This document shows, piece by piece, positions 23,654 through 59,341 of a stretch of 64,000 nt of DNA; position 1 is the first letter of the stretch, and each line of letters begins with the position of its first letter. The notes beneath the pieces are model-generated. The model was not told where the DNA came from. It did no database searches and saw only the letters and a program-made list of their open reading frames with translations. Source of the DNA: Roseithermus sacchariphilus (GTDB lineage: Bacteria > Bacteroidota > Rhodothermia > Rhodothermales > MEBIC09517); assembly GCA_003285105.1 (NCBI GenBank), contig CP030158.1, forward strand, positions 4,636,449 to 4,700,448, given 5' to 3'. Made by a program: the position numbers and the translations under genes.

Positions 23654-25099
23654 TCACGGCTGACCGCTGACGGCTGACCGCTGATGCACCCGAAACGTGC
23701 GATAGCCGAAGACGGCGATCACGGCGAAGCTGATCAGCGGCAGCACGAAGGACGCCCGCACGGAGTCCAGCATCATGAAGCCGAGGTCGAAGGGCGGCAG
23801 GTCGATGATGCTGCCCTGCAGCGGCGGCATCAGCGCGCCGCCGACGATGGCGAAGATCAGCCCGGCCGAGGCGATCTTGGCATCGTCCCCGAGGCCGTGC
23901 AGGGCGATGCCGTAGATCGAGGGGAACATCAGCGACATGCACGCCGAGATGCCGATCAGGCTGTAGAGCCCGGCATACCCCGGCAGAAAGATGGTGCCGA
24001 GCGTACAGGCCATCGCCCCGATCGCCAGCGCCATGAGCAGCTTCCCGGGGCTCAGGTACTTCAGCAGGTAGGTGCAGATGAACCGGCTGGAGCAGAAGAT
24101 CACCATGGCGACGATGTTATGGTTCTGCGCCTGCACGGCCGTCATCCCCAGCACCCCCATCGCGTAGTGGATGATGAACGTCCAGCACATGATCTGCGCG
24201 CCGACGTAGAAGGCCTGAGCCACGACGCCCTCCACATAGGCCCGGTTCTTCGCCAGCCGCCGGAACGTCGCGCCCAGATGCACCGTCCCCGTATGCTCGC
24301 CCGTCCGGGGCATCTTCGTCAGGATGAACGTCAGCATCACCGCCAGCACGACGAGCGCCAGGACCACGTAGGGGGTGCGGATGGTGGCCAGGTCGGCCGC
24401 CTGCATGGCCTCGTAGGCGGCCGGTTGCGTCCGGGCCAGTTCGGCGAGGGCGGCCATGATGCGGGCGTCCACCTCGCCCGGCAGCAGCGAGGCATACTCC
24501 GGGTGCGCCGCCATCTGAGCGGCCCGGAACCGCCCCACTTCCAGGTTGGCCAGGATCACCTGGCTGGCCACCACCATCCCCAGCAACGACCCGATCGGGT
24601 TGAAGGCCTGCGCCAGGTTCAGCCGGCGCGTGGCCGTCTCCTCCGGTCCCATCGACAGCACGTACGGGTTGGCCGTGGTCTCCAGGAACGCCAGCCCGAA
24701 GGTGAGGATGTAGAGCGCCAGCAGGAACACCCAGAACTGCATCGTCCAGCTGGCCGGGATGAACAGCAGGGCGCCCAGGGCATAGAGCCCGAGGCCGCAG
24801 ACGATGCCCGCCTTGTAGGAGTAGCGCTGGATGAAGATGGCCGCCGGCAACGCCATCGTCGCATACCCGCCGTAGAAGGCCGTCTGCACCAGGCTGCTCT
24901 GCCGGGCCGAGATCAGAAAGATCTCCTGGAAGGCCTTGACGAGCGGGTTGGTGATGTCGTTGGCGAACCCCCACAGGGCAAACAGCGAGGTGACCAGCGC
25001 GAAGGGCCACAGCATGCCGGCAGGGATGAGCGGGGCCTCCCGGGAAGCCGCCACCCCGGGCACCACCGTGGTCGGCTGCGAAGCAGGCGATGAGGACAT
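23654..25099 (-). CDS. FucP/GluP-family sugar:proton symporter (MFS)
   Basis: A 481-residue MFS transporter with about 12 TM helices. The signature WGFANDITNPLVKAFQEIF in TM1-TM2 and ETTANPYVLSMGPEETATRRLNLAQAFNPIGS in TM4-5 are typical of the L-fucose/glucose/galactose permease group. An insertion of about 70 residues in the first half carries a helical loop (AAHPEYASLLPGEVDARIMAALAEL). The start is set at 25099, because the longer open frame begins before a plausible cytoplasmic N-terminus. The last eight or so residues come from a heptamer repeat, so the native C-terminus has probably been altered. It stands alone, with no sugar kinase beside it. Confidence 0.92.
   Translation of the reverse strand: MSSSPASQPTTVVPGVAASREAPLIPAGMLWPFALVTSLFALWGFANDITNPLVKAFQEIFLISARQSSLVQTAFYGGYATMALPAAIFIQRYSYKAGIVCGLGLYALGALLFIPASWTMQFWVFLLALYILTFGLAFLETTANPYVLSMGPEETATRRLNLAQAFNPIGSLLGMVVASQVILANLEVGRFRAAQMAAHPEYASLLPGEVDARIMAALAELARTQPAAYEAMQAADLATIRTPYVVLALVVLAVMLTFILTKMPRTGEHTGTVHLGATFRRLAKNRAYVEGVVAQAFYVGAQIMCWTFIIHYAMGVLGMTAVQAQNHNIVAMVIFCSSRFICTYLLKYLSPGKLLMALAIGAMACTLGTIFLPGYAGLYSLIGISACMSLMFPSIYGIALHGLGDDAKIASAGLIFAIVGGALMPPLQGSIIDLPPFDLGFMMLDSVRASFVLPLISFAVIAVFGYRTFRVHQRSAVSGQP
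23658..23685. repeat. Short GGCTGAC/CGCTGAC heptamer array at the end of the sugar transporter gene
   Basis: Four consecutive 7-bp units: GGCTGAC, CGCTGAC, GGCTGAC, CGCTGAT. They lie just inside the 3' end of the transporter gene and encode its last residues (RSAVSGQP then stop). The units match those ending the large array at 41827-42155 (GGCTGAC, AGCTGAC, CGCTGAC). Confidence 0.85.
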
Positions 25100-35240: not shown

Positions 35241-35356
35241 GTCGAAGGTCGAAGATCGAGTGGCGAAGGTCGAGTGGCGAAGGTCGAAAGTCGAAAGTCG
35301 AAGACCGGGATCACGACACGGTTTCCCGTCCGCCCTTCGACCTTTGTCCTTCGCCC
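35241..35356. repeat. GTCGAAG heptamer element, inverted form
   Basis: Nine contiguous 7-bp units (35241-35303; GTCGAAG, ATCGAGT, GGCGAAG and GTCGAAA variants). A 17-bp spacer follows, and then the opposite-strand form GTTTCCCGTCCGCCCTTCGA with further CCTTTG/TCCTTCG-type units up to 35356. The two arms are partly complementary. The element fills the gap between two minus-strand genes, touching the TAA of the upstream gene and ending 6 bp from the ATG of the downstream gene. Confidence 0.85.
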
Positions 35357-39435: not shown

Positions 39436-40011
39436 TTACTTCGGCAGCGCCGGCTTCGTCACGCCGACGGGCTTCGCCGGCCTGGCGTCGGCGGCTTCGG
39501 GCCGGGCACCGGGACGCCGCCAGAGCGGGACGGACGAACACGGCTCTCCGTACATCAGCTTGCGCGCCACGCCCTGCAGCTTCTGCGTCGCCAGCATATA
39601 GGCATCGACCGGGACGGTACCGGTGCCGCAGCCTTTGATGACGACGATGCGGTCGCGGAACCGGCTCCAGTCCTCGGCTTCGAGGGCGCGGACGAAGTGG
39701 TCCCGCACGAGGTCGGCGCGGCGGCCGAAGGCGACGCTCCGGGCGATGCCGTGGAGCTTCGAGGCGATGAGCATGTAGGCCCACGTCGGCACGATGGCGT
39801 CGGCCGAGCAGTAGACGGCTACGTGCCGGCCGGCGTACGGCGCCCAGTCGTGCGCCCGGACGTGCTCGCGGAAGACCTTCTCGCGCAGGATCAGGCCCTC
39901 CACGAGGAACGGCGCGATGTCGAATTCGACGACCTCGCCGCCGTCCCACAGGTCGTCCAGGCTGTAGACGTCGATGTCGCTTTCGGCTACGCGGTTGGTG
40001 ATCGGCTCCAT
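39436..40011 (-). CDS. DUF2480 family protein
   Basis: A 191-residue soluble protein matching the Bacteroidota-specific DUF2480 family from its patterns: VYSLDDLWDGGEVVEFDIAPFLVEGLILREKVFR near the start, VAVYCSADAIVPTWAYMLI in the middle and VVIKGCGTGTVPVDAYML further on. Function is unknown to me; two Cys (in CSADA and CGTG) are notable. No signal peptide. The C-terminal 30 residues are Ala/Pro/Lys-rich. Downstream on the minus strand is a short heptamer element, and its own leader is a larger one. Confidence 0.85.
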   Translation of the reverse strand: MEPITNRVAESDIDVYSLDDLWDGGEVVEFDIAPFLVEGLILREKVFREHVRAHDWAPYAGRHVAVYCSADAIVPTWAYMLIASKLHGIARSVAFGRRADLVRDHFVRALEAEDWSRFRDRIVVIKGCGTGTVPVDAYMLATQKLQGVARKLMYGEPCSSVPLWRRPGARPEAADARPAKPVGVTKPALPK

Positions 40012-40019
40012 GGGGCTAT

Positions 40020-40156
40020 GTCGAGTGTCGAATGTCGAAGGTCGAAGGTCGAGTGTCGCATGGGGACCGGGGCGAAGGGCGGGGTTCGACGGTCGGGCTA
40101 CGGGACCGTTTTCCCGTCCGCCCTTCGCACGTCCGCCTTCGTCCTTCCCTTCAATG
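40020..40156. repeat. GTCGAAG heptamer element, inverted form
   Basis: Six perfect heptamers (40020-40061: GTCGAGT, GTCGAAT, GTCGAAG, GTCGAAG, GTCGAGT, GTCGCAT). A spacer of about 46 bp follows, then GTTTTCCCGTCCGCCCTTCG and related opposite-strand units to about 40156. It fills the intergenic region between two minus-strand genes and begins 8 bp from the DUF2480 start codon. Confidence 0.85.
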
Positions 40157-40185: not shown

Positions 40186-41373
40186 CTACGCGGCCCGGGC
40201 CGCGGCCAGCCCCCGGTCCAGGTCGGCGCGGAGGTCGTCGATGTGTTCGAGGCCGATGGAGAGGCGGACCAGGCCCGGCGTGATGCCGACGGCGGCCCGC
40301 TCCTCCTCGGTGAGCTTCGAGTGGGTGGTCGATGCCGGGTGGGTGGCGATGCTGCGCGTATCGCCCAGGTTCGACGAGCGGGAGATCATCGTGAGGGCAT
40401 CCAGGAAGGCGAAGGCCGCCGCGTAGCCGCCGGCCAGTTCGAACGTGACCATGCTGCCGCCCTGCCGCATCTGCCGCCGGGCCAGTTCGTGCTGCGGGTG
40501 CGAGGGCAGGAACGGGTAGCGCACCCGCGTCACGCCGGGCTGGCCTTCGAGGAATTCGGCCACGGCCAGCGCATTGGCGCAATGCCGGTCCACCCGCACG
40601 GCGAGCGTCTCCAGGCTCTTCGAGAGGATCCAGCCGTGGAACGGCGACATCGCCGGGCCCGTGTGGCGCGCCATGAACCGCACCTCCTCGATCAGATCGG
40701 CCGCCCCGAGCACGGCCCCGCCGAGCACGCGCCCCTGCCCGTCGATCAGCTTCGTGGCCGAGTGGGTGACGAGGTCCGCACCGAATTCCGCCGGGTTCTG
40801 GAGGTACGGCGTGGCGAAGCAGTTGTCCACGTTCAGGATGGCGCTGTAGGCCACGGCCAGCGAACCGAGCCAGTCGAGGTCAGCCAGTTCGAGGCCGGGG
40901 TTCGAGGGCGTCTCCACGAACAGCATCCGCGTGTTCCCCCGCATGGCCCGTTCCCAGGCCGCCCGCGGCGCGCTCAGGTCCACCAGGGTGCAGGAGATCC
41001 CCCAGCGCGGGAGCAGCCGCGTCAGGATCTGGTGCGTCGAGCCGAAGAGCGAGCGCGAGGCGACGACGTGGTCGCCCTGGTTCAGGAACGCCGCCAGGCT
41101 GAGGAACATCGCCGCCATGCCCGAGGCCGTCGCCACGCCGTCCTCGACGCCTTCGAGCGCGCAGAGCTTACGCACGAACTCGTCCGTGTTGGGGTTGGCG
41201 TAGCGCGAGTAGACGTGGCCCTCGGCCTCGCCCGCGAAGAGCGCCCGTGCCTGCTCGGCATCGTCGAAGACGAAGCTGGAGGTGGCGAAGATGGGCACGC
41301 TGTGCTCGCGGTGCGCGCTGCGCTCGGCCTGGAGGCGGATCGCCTCGGTCTCGAAGTGCCGCTCGGGTGCCAT
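40186..41373 (-). CDS. Cys/Met metabolism PLP enzyme, probably O-succinylhomoserine sulfhydrylase
   Basis: A 395-residue type I PLP enzyme. It has the PLP lysine Lys208 in THSATKLIDGQGR, Asp183 in NVDNCFATPY, and the family motifs YSRYANPNTDEF, ETPSNPG and SIGLEHIDDL. Homology points to cystathionine gamma-synthase / MetZ enzymes acting on activated homoserine; MetZ is my best guess from the GQGRVLGG and the SRSSNLGDTRSIATHPAST patterns. It starts 2 bp past the TGA of the upstream OsmC gene (a GTG at 41379 overlapping that stop is an alternative), so the two are coupled. Confidence 0.93.
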   Translation of the reverse strand: MAPERHFETEAIRLQAERSAHREHSVPIFATSSFVFDDAEQARALFAGEAEGHVYSRYANPNTDEFVRKLCALEGVEDGVATASGMAAMFLSLAAFLNQGDHVVASRSLFGSTHQILTRLLPRWGISCTLVDLSAPRAAWERAMRGNTRMLFVETPSNPGLELADLDWLGSLAVAYSAILNVDNCFATPYLQNPAEFGADLVTHSATKLIDGQGRVLGGAVLGAADLIEEVRFMARHTGPAMSPFHGWILSKSLETLAVRVDRHCANALAVAEFLEGQPGVTRVRYPFLPSHPQHELARRQMRQGGSMVTFELAGGYAAAFAFLDALTMISRSSNLGDTRSIATHPASTTHSKLTEEERAAVGITPGLVRLSIGLEHIDDLRADLDRGLAAARAA

Positions 41374-41807: not shown

Positions 41808-41826
41808 AAGGGGGCTTCTGGTTTTT

Positions 41827-42155
41827 GGCTGCTGGCTACTGGCTGCTGGCTTCGGGCTACTGGCTGCTGGCTTCGGGCTGCTGGCTACTGGCTTCGGGCT
41901 GCTGGCTTTTGGCTTCGGGCTGCTGGCTTTTAGCTTCGGGCTGCTGGCTTTTGGCTGCTGGCTACTGGCTGCTGGCTTCGGGCTGCTGGCTTTTGGCTTC
42001 GGGCTGCTGGCTTTTGGCTTCGGGCTACTGGCTGCTGGCTTCGGGCTGCTGGCTGCTGGCTTCGGGCTGCTGGCTGCTGGCTTCGGGCTGCTGGCTGCTG
42101 GCTTCGGGCTGCTGGCTGACGGCTGACAGCTGACAGCTGATCGCTGACGGCTCAC
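41827..42155. repeat. Array of 47 contiguous 7-bp repeats (GGCTNNN)
   Basis: The 329 bp divide exactly into 47 heptamers without a single slip. Main units are GGCTGCT, GGCTTCG, GGCTACT and GGCTTTT; the last units turn to GGCTGAC, AGCTGAC, AGCTGAT, CGCTGAC and GGCTCAC. Higher-order 14- and 21-bp patterns (GGCTGCT-GGCTGCT-GGCTTCG) are visible. Since 7 is not a multiple of 3 all frames read open, giving spurious ORFs on both strands. It lies between the cysteine desulfurase and OsmC genes and runs into the desulfurase 3' end. Confidence 0.95.
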
Positions 42156-43299
42156 AACCCGCAGCCGCTAACGCGGCGGCGCGGAACCGTTCGATGGCAT
42201 AGTCCACGTCCTCCCCGGTGGTGAAGCGGCCCATGCTGAGGCGGATGGTGGCCTCGGCCTCGGCCGGCGAGCGGCCCATGGCGGTGAGCACGTGGCTGGG
42301 CGTCCCGGAGCCGGAGGCACACGCGCTGCCGGTGGAGAGCGCCAGATCGCGGAGGTTCATCATGAGGTACTCCGCCGGGATCCTGCGGAACGTCAGGCTG
42401 GAGGTCTGCGGCAAGCGCTCGGCGCCGTCGCCGTTGATCTGCAGGCCGTCTCCCAGGTCCTCGCGGAGCGCGGCTTCGAGGCGGTCGCGCCAGGCGCGGA
42501 GGCGGCGCGCCTCGGCGGGTTGCTCCGACCGCGCCAGCTCCAGCGCCGCACCGAGGCCGACGATGCCCGGCGTGTTGAGCGTCCCCCCGCGCAGCCCCCG
42601 CTCCTGCCCGCCGCCGTCGAGCAGCGGCACGAGGCGGACGCGGGGGTTCCGCCGGCGCACGTACAGCGCCCCGACGCCCTTGGGCGCGTAGACCTTGTGG
42701 CCGGAGAGCACCAGCAGATCCACGTGCTCCACGCTCACCGGCACCTTGCCGACGGCCTGCGTGGCGTCCGTCATGAACAGAATGCCCCGGCGGCGCACCC
42801 GCTCGGCGAGGGCCTCGATGGGCTGGAGCACGCCCGTCTCGTTGTTGGCCCACATGATGCTGACGAGAATCGTCTCGTCCGTCAGCGCCGCCTCCAGCTC
42901 CTCCGGGTCGACCCGCCCCTGACCGTCGACCGGCAGGTACGTCACCCGGGCCCCCCGCCGCTCCAGCGCGCGGCAGGCGTCGAGCACGGCCTTGTGCTCC
43001 GTGGCCGCGGTGACGATGTGGCGGCCCTTGCCGGCATACGCCTCGGCCACGCCCTTGATCGCCGTGTTGATGCCCTCCGTCGCCCCGCTGGTGAAGTAGA
43101 TCTCCGCCGGGTCGGCCCCGAGCATCCCGGCCACCTCCTCGCGGGCCTGCTGCACCGCCTCGGCTGCCGTCCAGCCGAACGGGTGCGCGCTGCTGGACGG
43201 GTTGCCGAAATGCTGCGTGAAGTAGGGCACCATCCGCTCCAGCACCCGCTCGTCGACGGGCGTGGTGGCGTTGTAGTCGAAGTAGAGGAGACGCTGCAT
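42025..43299 (-). CDS. Cysteine desulfurase (NifS/IscS family)
   Basis: A 424-residue PLP enzyme providing sulfur for Fe-S clusters or thio-cofactors. It begins LLYFDYNATTPVDERVL. It has His102 in TEHKAVLDA, PLP lysine Lys202 in SGHKVYAPKG and active-site Cys327 in STGSACASGSGTPSHVL. The natural family sequence ends about residue 382 (RFRAAALAAAGC). The last 42 residues (PSAISCQLSAVSQQ then repeated PEASSQQ) are coded by the heptamer array and look like read-through. Start at 43299; an 8-bp inverted repeat (ACCATCGG 43303-43310, CCGATGGT 43331-43338) lies in its leader. Confidence 0.93.
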   Translation of the reverse strand: MQRLLYFDYNATTPVDERVLERMVPYFTQHFGNPSSSAHPFGWTAAEAVQQAREEVAGMLGADPAEIYFTSGATEGINTAIKGVAEAYAGKGRHIVTAATEHKAVLDACRALERRGARVTYLPVDGQGRVDPEELEAALTDETILVSIMWANNETGVLQPIEALAERVRRRGILFMTDATQAVGKVPVSVEHVDLLVLSGHKVYAPKGVGALYVRRRNPRVRLVPLLDGGGQERGLRGGTLNTPGIVGLGAALELARSEQPAEARRLRAWRDRLEAALREDLGDGLQINGDGAERLPQTSSLTFRRIPAEYLMMNLRDLALSTGSACASGSGTPSHVLTAMGRSPAEAEATIRLSMGRFTTGEDVDYAIERFRAAALAAAGCEPSAISCQLSAVSQQPEASSQQPEASSQQPEASSQQPEASSQ

Positions 43300-59280: not shown

Positions 59281-59292
59281 GGGGTCGGGAAT

Positions 59293-59341
59293 GTCGAGGG
59301 GCGAATGTCGAGGGGCGAATGTCGAAGGACGGACGGGAAAC
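59293..59341 (+). repeat. GTCGAAG heptamer element, direct form
   Basis: Five heptamers (GTCGAGG, GGCGAAT, GTCGAGG, GGCGAAT, GTCGAAG) followed directly by GACGGACGGGAAAC. That tail is the reverse complement of the GTTTCCCGTCCG found in the inverted copies. It sits 12 bp from the DUF1501 start codon. Confidence 0.8.

Follow-up and report, generated by a model that had tools for sequence, protein, structure and literature searches.

A 47-unit heptamer array in Roseithermus sacchariphilus, its directional genome-wide family and the inverted heptameric flanks of IVP genes

The heptamer array and its gene neighborhood

In Roseithermus sacchariphilus, a cysteine desulfurase gene and a gene encoding an OsmC-like protein belong to the same row of minus-strand genes, and the spacer between them consists entirely of a tandem array of 7-bp units (Table 1). 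The window referred to throughout is the whole analyzed stretch of 64,000 nt, i.e., positions 4,636,449 to 4,700,448 of the forward strand of contig CP030158.1 (assembly GCA_003285105.1). A first-pass annotation had placed the array between a desulfurase and an OsmC gene, which agrees with the PF00266 and PF02566 matches of the two neighbors. As also annotated, the 329 bp divide exactly into 47 units of 7 bp with unbroken phase; the accompanying term "perfect heptamers", however, is accurate for the phase but not for the units, which are not identical to one another.

Table 1. Features of the heptamer locus and a further family member, with coordinates counted from the first base of the window
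Feature	Position	Strand
Short family member, GGCTGAC CGCTGAC GGCTGAC CGCTGAT	23658..23685	+
DUF2480 protein	39436..40011	-
PLP enzyme of Cys/Met metabolism (PF01053), next in the gene row	40186..41373	-
OsmC-like protein (PF02566), 144 aa	41376..41810	-
Two decayed units, GGCTTCT GGTTTTT, left extension of the array	41813..41826	+
Heptamer array, 47 units nGCTnnn (43 GGCTNNN)	41827..42155	+
5' part of the array, 41 units, mostly GGCTGCT/TCG/ACT/TTT, 21-bp higher-order repeat	41827..42113	+
3' part of the array, GGCTGAC GGCTGAC AGCTGAC AGCTGAT CGCTGAC GGCTCAC, the family's conserved end type nGCTGAn	42114..42155	+
Cysteine desulfurase ORF (Aminotran_5, PF00266), 424 aa from ATG at 43299	42025..43299	-

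The trinucleotide GCT fills unit positions 2-4 in all 47 units, and 43 of them begin with G and thereby with GGCT. The tally of units (GGCTGCT 19, GGCTTCG 11, GGCTACT 5, GGCTTTT 5, GGCTGAC 2 and five singletons) confirms the four types that had been named as predominant, while the reported shift towards GGCTGAC-type units is found at the right end, where the last six units are nGCTGAn or nearly so. Superimposed on the heptamers is a higher-order period of 21 bp, with a self-match of 0.89 at lag 21 vs. 0.76 at lag 7. When the window was Markov-shuffled 20 times, the longest GCT run comprised four units, and among 90 arrays of at least five units in the stretches examined the window array ranks second in the number of GCT units. 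Tandem head-to-tail units of 7 bp are the trait of bacterial heptameric simple sequence repeats, and with 47 such units in phase the array is itself a member of this known kind, albeit one of unusual order.

On its right side the array reaches into a gene. The stop codon TAG of the desulfurase lies inside a GGCTACT unit, at 42025, so that the ORF enters the array, which encodes approximately 43 of the 424 residues. The Pfam match extends to residue 367, and array-coded sequence begins at about residue 382; a homologue from Rhodothermus comprises 389 residues and has an unrelated tail. Array-coded tails such as these last 43 residues are not equivalent to conserved protein sequence. Long ORFs that run across the array at 41825-42133 (GLLAAGF..., WLLASGC..., SSPKPAA...) likewise derive from the repeats and do not merit annotation as genes. 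In a Rhodothermus relative (L044), the DUF2480 gene directly follows the desulfurase. OsmC homologues in relatives are at most 46% identical, and none of the relatives retrieved shares the genus or family of this genome.

A second heptamer family, ATGTCGA/GTGTCGA with about six units, is located at 40018-40062, just upstream of the DUF2480 start codon and within the gene row that also contains the main array. Further arrays of GTCGANN type, which belong to a family separate from the GCT units, are present at 35241-35303 (GTCGAAG, nine copies) and 59289-59325 (GAATGTCGAGGGGC, 2.6 copies).

A directional family of GCT heptamers

The window array belongs, as one of the long members, to a directional family that extends over the genome and has the consensus nGCTnnn and the 3' end nGCTGAn. 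The genome comprises 4,807,988 bp in one contig, and 20 systematically sampled stretches of 20 kb (400 kb) together contained 26 arrays of at least four units, compared to 0 in Markov shuffles, which extrapolates to about 310 per genome; a similarity search with the window array yielded at least 60 genome matches. Six consecutive GGCTNNN units occur in exact form 417 times in this genome, the reversed control pattern 0 times. A survey of other genomes, which had been proposed along with the first-pass annotation, found the same six-unit pattern in 24 genomes out of 394 from Bacteroidota, where most of these arrays are homogeneous; by an approximate table count, the reversed pattern is about equally frequent in Bacteroidota. 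Heptamer arrays are therefore generic in Bacteroidota, and it is in the number and heterogeneity of its arrays that the R. sacchariphilus genome is an outlier. In a draft genome (G009; L126, L133, L138), GGCT arrays are often situated at or near contig ends, from which it follows that short-read assemblies probably undercount them.

Several rules govern the family. Concerning polarity, 39 of the 51 arrays of at least 10 units are richer in GA[CAT] units in their 3' third, and 0 in their 5' third. Concerning the triplet, the numbers of one-step variant unit types at unit positions 1 to 7 are 67, 8, 3, 11, 50, 33 and 52; for this count arrays were taken from TRF and only 40% GCT was demanded for phasing, GCT not being required in every unit. 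Plain slippage predicts variation across all unit positions, and the counts of 8, 3 and 11 at positions 2-4 depart from this prediction. Moreover, the 3' ends keep the phase: beyond the final nGCTGAn unit, about 80% of the arrays retain nGC and 62% the T, and the sequence that follows is random. A candidate in-phase terminal unit GGCTC was dropped, since only nGC(T) is retained and the next base is near random. Finally, higher-order repeats of dimers and trimers of units recur in many arrays, which lends good support to the earlier suggestion that slippage or recombination shapes such repeats.

Around two apparent transposase genes (L022:3884-8758), two long arrays of identical orientation were observed that share the same unusual units (GGCTGTG GGCCGTG GGCTCCG), a layout suggestive of insertion sequences that inserted into arrays or became joined to them.

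Reading frames, start codons and the question of function

Because 7 is coprime to 3, gain or loss of a unit shifts the frame of the desulfurase C-terminus, as had been pointed out before, and three outcomes were computed for unit changes near the desulfurase end. With 44, 47 or 50 units the desulfurase ORF would comprise 417, 424 or 431 aa, with 45 or 48 units it would acquire an alternative tail and extend to 451 or 458 aa, and with 46 or 49 units an in-frame desulfurase-OsmC fusion of 638 or 645 aa would result. The present 47 units keep the two proteins separate. These frames, together with the different heptamer numbers found between Coxiella strains at an intervening sequence (IVS; PMC4990558), are what a phase-variable contingency locus could build on, in which a change in unit number switches the desulfurase C-terminus or the coupling or fusion with OsmC. 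Nevertheless, the altered part lies outside the catalytic domain of the desulfurase, the neighbors are housekeeping genes (desulfurase, OsmC, PLP enzyme) with no surface, adaptive or regulatory gene among them, and the family counts about 310 mostly intergenic arrays beside unrelated genes. Phase variation as the function of the array, which had been offered as a possibility, finds no support beyond the frame arithmetic and is very improbable.

The left end of the array permits another view, since the decayed units bring it to within 2 bp of the OsmC start codon. TAACTGA repeats are often positioned a few bases before start codons as well (PMC4679880), and by analogy with a role proposed for them in Beggiatoaceae the array could provide repeated binding sites for protein or RNA in the transcript upstream of OsmC. 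Across the genome, however, the arrays adopt no single gene orientation: the arrangements of their flanking genes fall into four classes of 26, 21, 15 and 13, and only six array midpoints lie within genes called by a simple, purpose-written GC-frame method, the arrays being mostly intergenic. In addition, the window array has no Rfam match, and a structured RNA is not apparent at the array, the predicted folding being no better than that of shuffles on either strand (z = 1.4 and -0.6). A regulatory array is thus improbable. Most likely, the array at this locus has no regulatory role and merely forms a low-complexity desulfurase tail together with the whole OsmC spacer.

A palindromic core within many arrays

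Many arrays enclose an oriented palindromic core of 139 bp, of which 70 matches exist in the genome and whose orientation relative to the array is constant in 53 of 54 cases. In the 400-kb sample, seven of nine core clusters adjoin an array and 11 of 26 arrays adjoin a core. Copies of the core were noted at L009:3735-3873, L036:2947-4083 and L174:1483-1881, with up to seven in tandem at a period of about 167 bp. Furthermore, the sole DUF559 gene of the genome sits within a core copy, on account of which the core looks like the gene-less form of a DUF559 element.

The frequent contact between cores and arrays, the nearly invariant core orientation and the location of the only DUF559 gene could suggest that the arrays are mere companions in a composite [GGCTNNN]n-core-[nGCTGAn]n, whose dispersal is driven by the DUF559-linked core and not by an IVP element (see below). 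Most arrays, the one in the window included, nonetheless lack a core, and DUF559 loci of relatives are devoid of period-7 flanks, which leaves this proposal with a very small chance of being correct. DUF559 itself was discarded as the driver of the heptamers, as no period of 7 is seen beside DUF559 genes from the order of R. sacchariphilus.

The dispersed, oriented, partly palindromic and intergenic nature of the repeats is also reminiscent of REP sequences, which are palindromic and mobilized by an IS200-like (Y1) transposase (RAYT). The units are tandem heptamers, though, and not single hairpins, and a search for the Y1 transposase domain PF01797 gave no match in the genome, while the same search was positive in five of 14 control genomes. 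A RAYT-type element was therefore rejected, and an origin of this type can hardly be entertained.

Inverted heptamers flank IVP genes in several phyla

The genome contains two PF05635 genes (IVP, also named "23S intervening-sequence" or "four-helix bundle"/S23), at 1673718 and 793101. The former, at 1673718-1674035, is the best of the genome and carries nGCTGAn heptamers on both sides, which are mutually inverted and one of which includes the stop codon. The latter (793101-793403; L173:1322-1960) is flanked by inverted CATTCNN/GAATGNN heptamers, with about 16 units on one side.

This architecture is general. At Bacteroidota IVP loci, a period-7 score of at least 0.6 was obtained for 93 of 148 flanks at 0-170 bp vs. 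10, 5 and 6 in the next bins, and apart from a slight excess at 8, periods other than 7 did not rise much above baseline. In 52 of 73 analyzable loci, the left flank is an inverted copy of the right one, as opposed to one in the control of flanks taken further out (alignment score of at least 24; p = 1.5e-13). IVP loci of other phyla replicate both features, with period-7 flanks in 41 of 60 (control 2 of 60) and inverted flanks in 23 of 28 (control 0). Within the order of R. sacchariphilus, loci of OsmC and of DUF559 lack period-7 flanks, the OsmC flanks are not inverted copies either, and desulfurase loci of other genomes possess few period-7 arrays. Clustering around a held triplet is weak within the IVP flanks themselves. 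Inverted period-7 flanks hence recur around IVP genes in several phyla, and this general inverted-heptamer architecture is the interesting result of the analysis. The literature searched, with most subscription journals outside its range, contained no statement of a general link between IVP genes and heptamers, the case of Coxiella having been reported already.

Indeed, the IVS of Coxiella comprises two to three tandem heptamers (GACAGAT) in strain-variable number upstream of an S23p ORF, and the S23p from Xanthomonas campestris is described as a homopentamer built from four-helix bundles (PMC4990558). Among solved structures, 2gsc (XCC0516), which has five chains, is nearest to the genome's own IVP protein.

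The window array as a possible gene-less relative of IVP ends

Three observations connect the window array to IVP genes: its end units match the genome's own IVP arms, gene-less arrays form inverted pairs, and a Desulfobacterales genome (G471) offers a parallel. The end units share the motif of the arms but have a single orientation at the window locus. Gene-less array pairs in the geometry of IVP flanks number 10, nine of them with gaps of 20-63 bp, compared to three in the opposite geometry. A 400-kb sample of G471 contains three arrays of period 7; two of these flank IVP genes, and the remaining one is similar to the arms of a further IVP gene in that genome. On this basis, the array would be a gene-less relative of the ends of IVP-type elements, dispersed as a directional family and enlarged by slippage and recombination, a reading for which the chances of being right or wrong are about evenly balanced.

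According to this proposal, the heptamers would represent the terminal repeats of a small, selfish IVP-type element, and gene-less copies may have spread as solo arrays or closely spaced inverted pairs. One solo copy could have inserted where the desulfurase gene ends, replacing its stop codon, and may subsequently have gained units two or three at a time through slippage and unequal recombination. The triplet held in every 7 bases might be what is recognized, possibly by a multimer in the form of a ring, an idea derived from an IVP protein known to be homopentameric. The window locus has no PF05635 gene next to the array, and the tie to IVP is one of motif and geometry.

Some findings count against descent from IVP ends. 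Two IVP genes face about 310 arrays, and only one of 41 array loci in other genomes has an IVP gene within approximately 1.5 kb, for which reason array loci were given up as a source of IVP genes elsewhere. Furthermore, two genomes (G003 and G017) have GGCTTGA arrays with no IVP gene detected, and in another one (G117), which is rich in IVP genes, no array was found by TRF. The weak held-triplet clustering in the IVP flanks also speaks against it.

An alternative would be ordinary heptameric repeats that arose from a short seed by slippage and recombination and were dispersed by chance and old duplications, with neither agent nor function, so that IVP loci merely share the period of 7. Heptamers are reported to be over-represented in many bacteria, for which slippage related to the polymerase footprint has been put forward (PMC4692102); homogeneous heptamer arrays of many different sequences are found in other Bacteroidota, at similar frequency in the reversed control; and the higher-order repeats at this locus speak for slippage or recombination. 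Such an explanation, however, does not account for one motif at about 310 sites, the polarity of 39 to 0, the in-phase 3' ends, the variation that avoids GCT and the core orientation. The held GCT, fixed polarity, oriented core and presence of the motif at IVP termini together constitute rules that plain slippage would not predict. Ordinary repeats are possible, if somewhat unlikely, as the full explanation.

Beyond the window, to our knowledge no accepted cause exists for the over-abundance of heptameric repeats in bacteria, and we know of no function for the IVP/S23 family, which is common and structurally solved. The inverted period-7 flanks at IVP genes in several phyla join these two questions by a statistical link. 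In the broadest interpretation, IVP/S23 proteins would form part of a widespread kind of minimal selfish element that terminates in degenerate inverted arrays of period 7, the ring-shaped protein would read these ends, and much of the excess of bacterial heptamers, including the window array, would be their gene-less offspring; stated at this generality, the proposal is rather doubtful.

Comparison with known repeat systems

Among the nearest known systems are 23S rRNA IVSs with an S23/IVP ORF, such as the 428-nt IVS of Coxiella burnetii, which has in common with IVP-type elements a small ORF of PF05635 type, ends formed by inverted repeats and tandem heptamers of strain-variable number near the ORF (PMC4990558). 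That IVS resides within 23S rRNA and is excised by RNase III, whereas the window array lies between protein genes, is devoid of an ORF, has a single orientation and is many times longer.

The simple sequence repeats of Xanthomonas and Nostoc (GGGAATC, GGGGA(T/C)T), as well as the Calothrix heptanucleotides cited along with them, resemble the GCT family in being intergenic, dispersed and degenerate tandem units of 7 bp, but the Xanthomonas and Nostoc repeats have another motif and form G4 structures. In the accessible portion of that report, polarity, a held triplet, a core or a link to IVP do not feature, and its authors state that the heptamers are not associated with mobile elements (PMC4692102).

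TAACTGA repeats of Beggiatoaceae, Cyanobacteria and Bacteroidetes are likewise intergenic direct repeats of heptamers, which form long arrays in some Bacteroidetes and, like the window array, are often situated just before start codons. They differ in a near-invariant motif in the main species and in their short sets, for which translational regulation was proposed (MacGregor 2015, PMC4679880).

Lastly, the GCT arrays share with MITEs the gene-less, dispersed state and a presumed parent element, and the inverted pairs 20-63 bp apart are MITE-like. In place of the fixed terminal inverted repeats of MITEs, for which target-site duplication is a further trait, the GCT arrays possess degenerate tandem heptamer ends.
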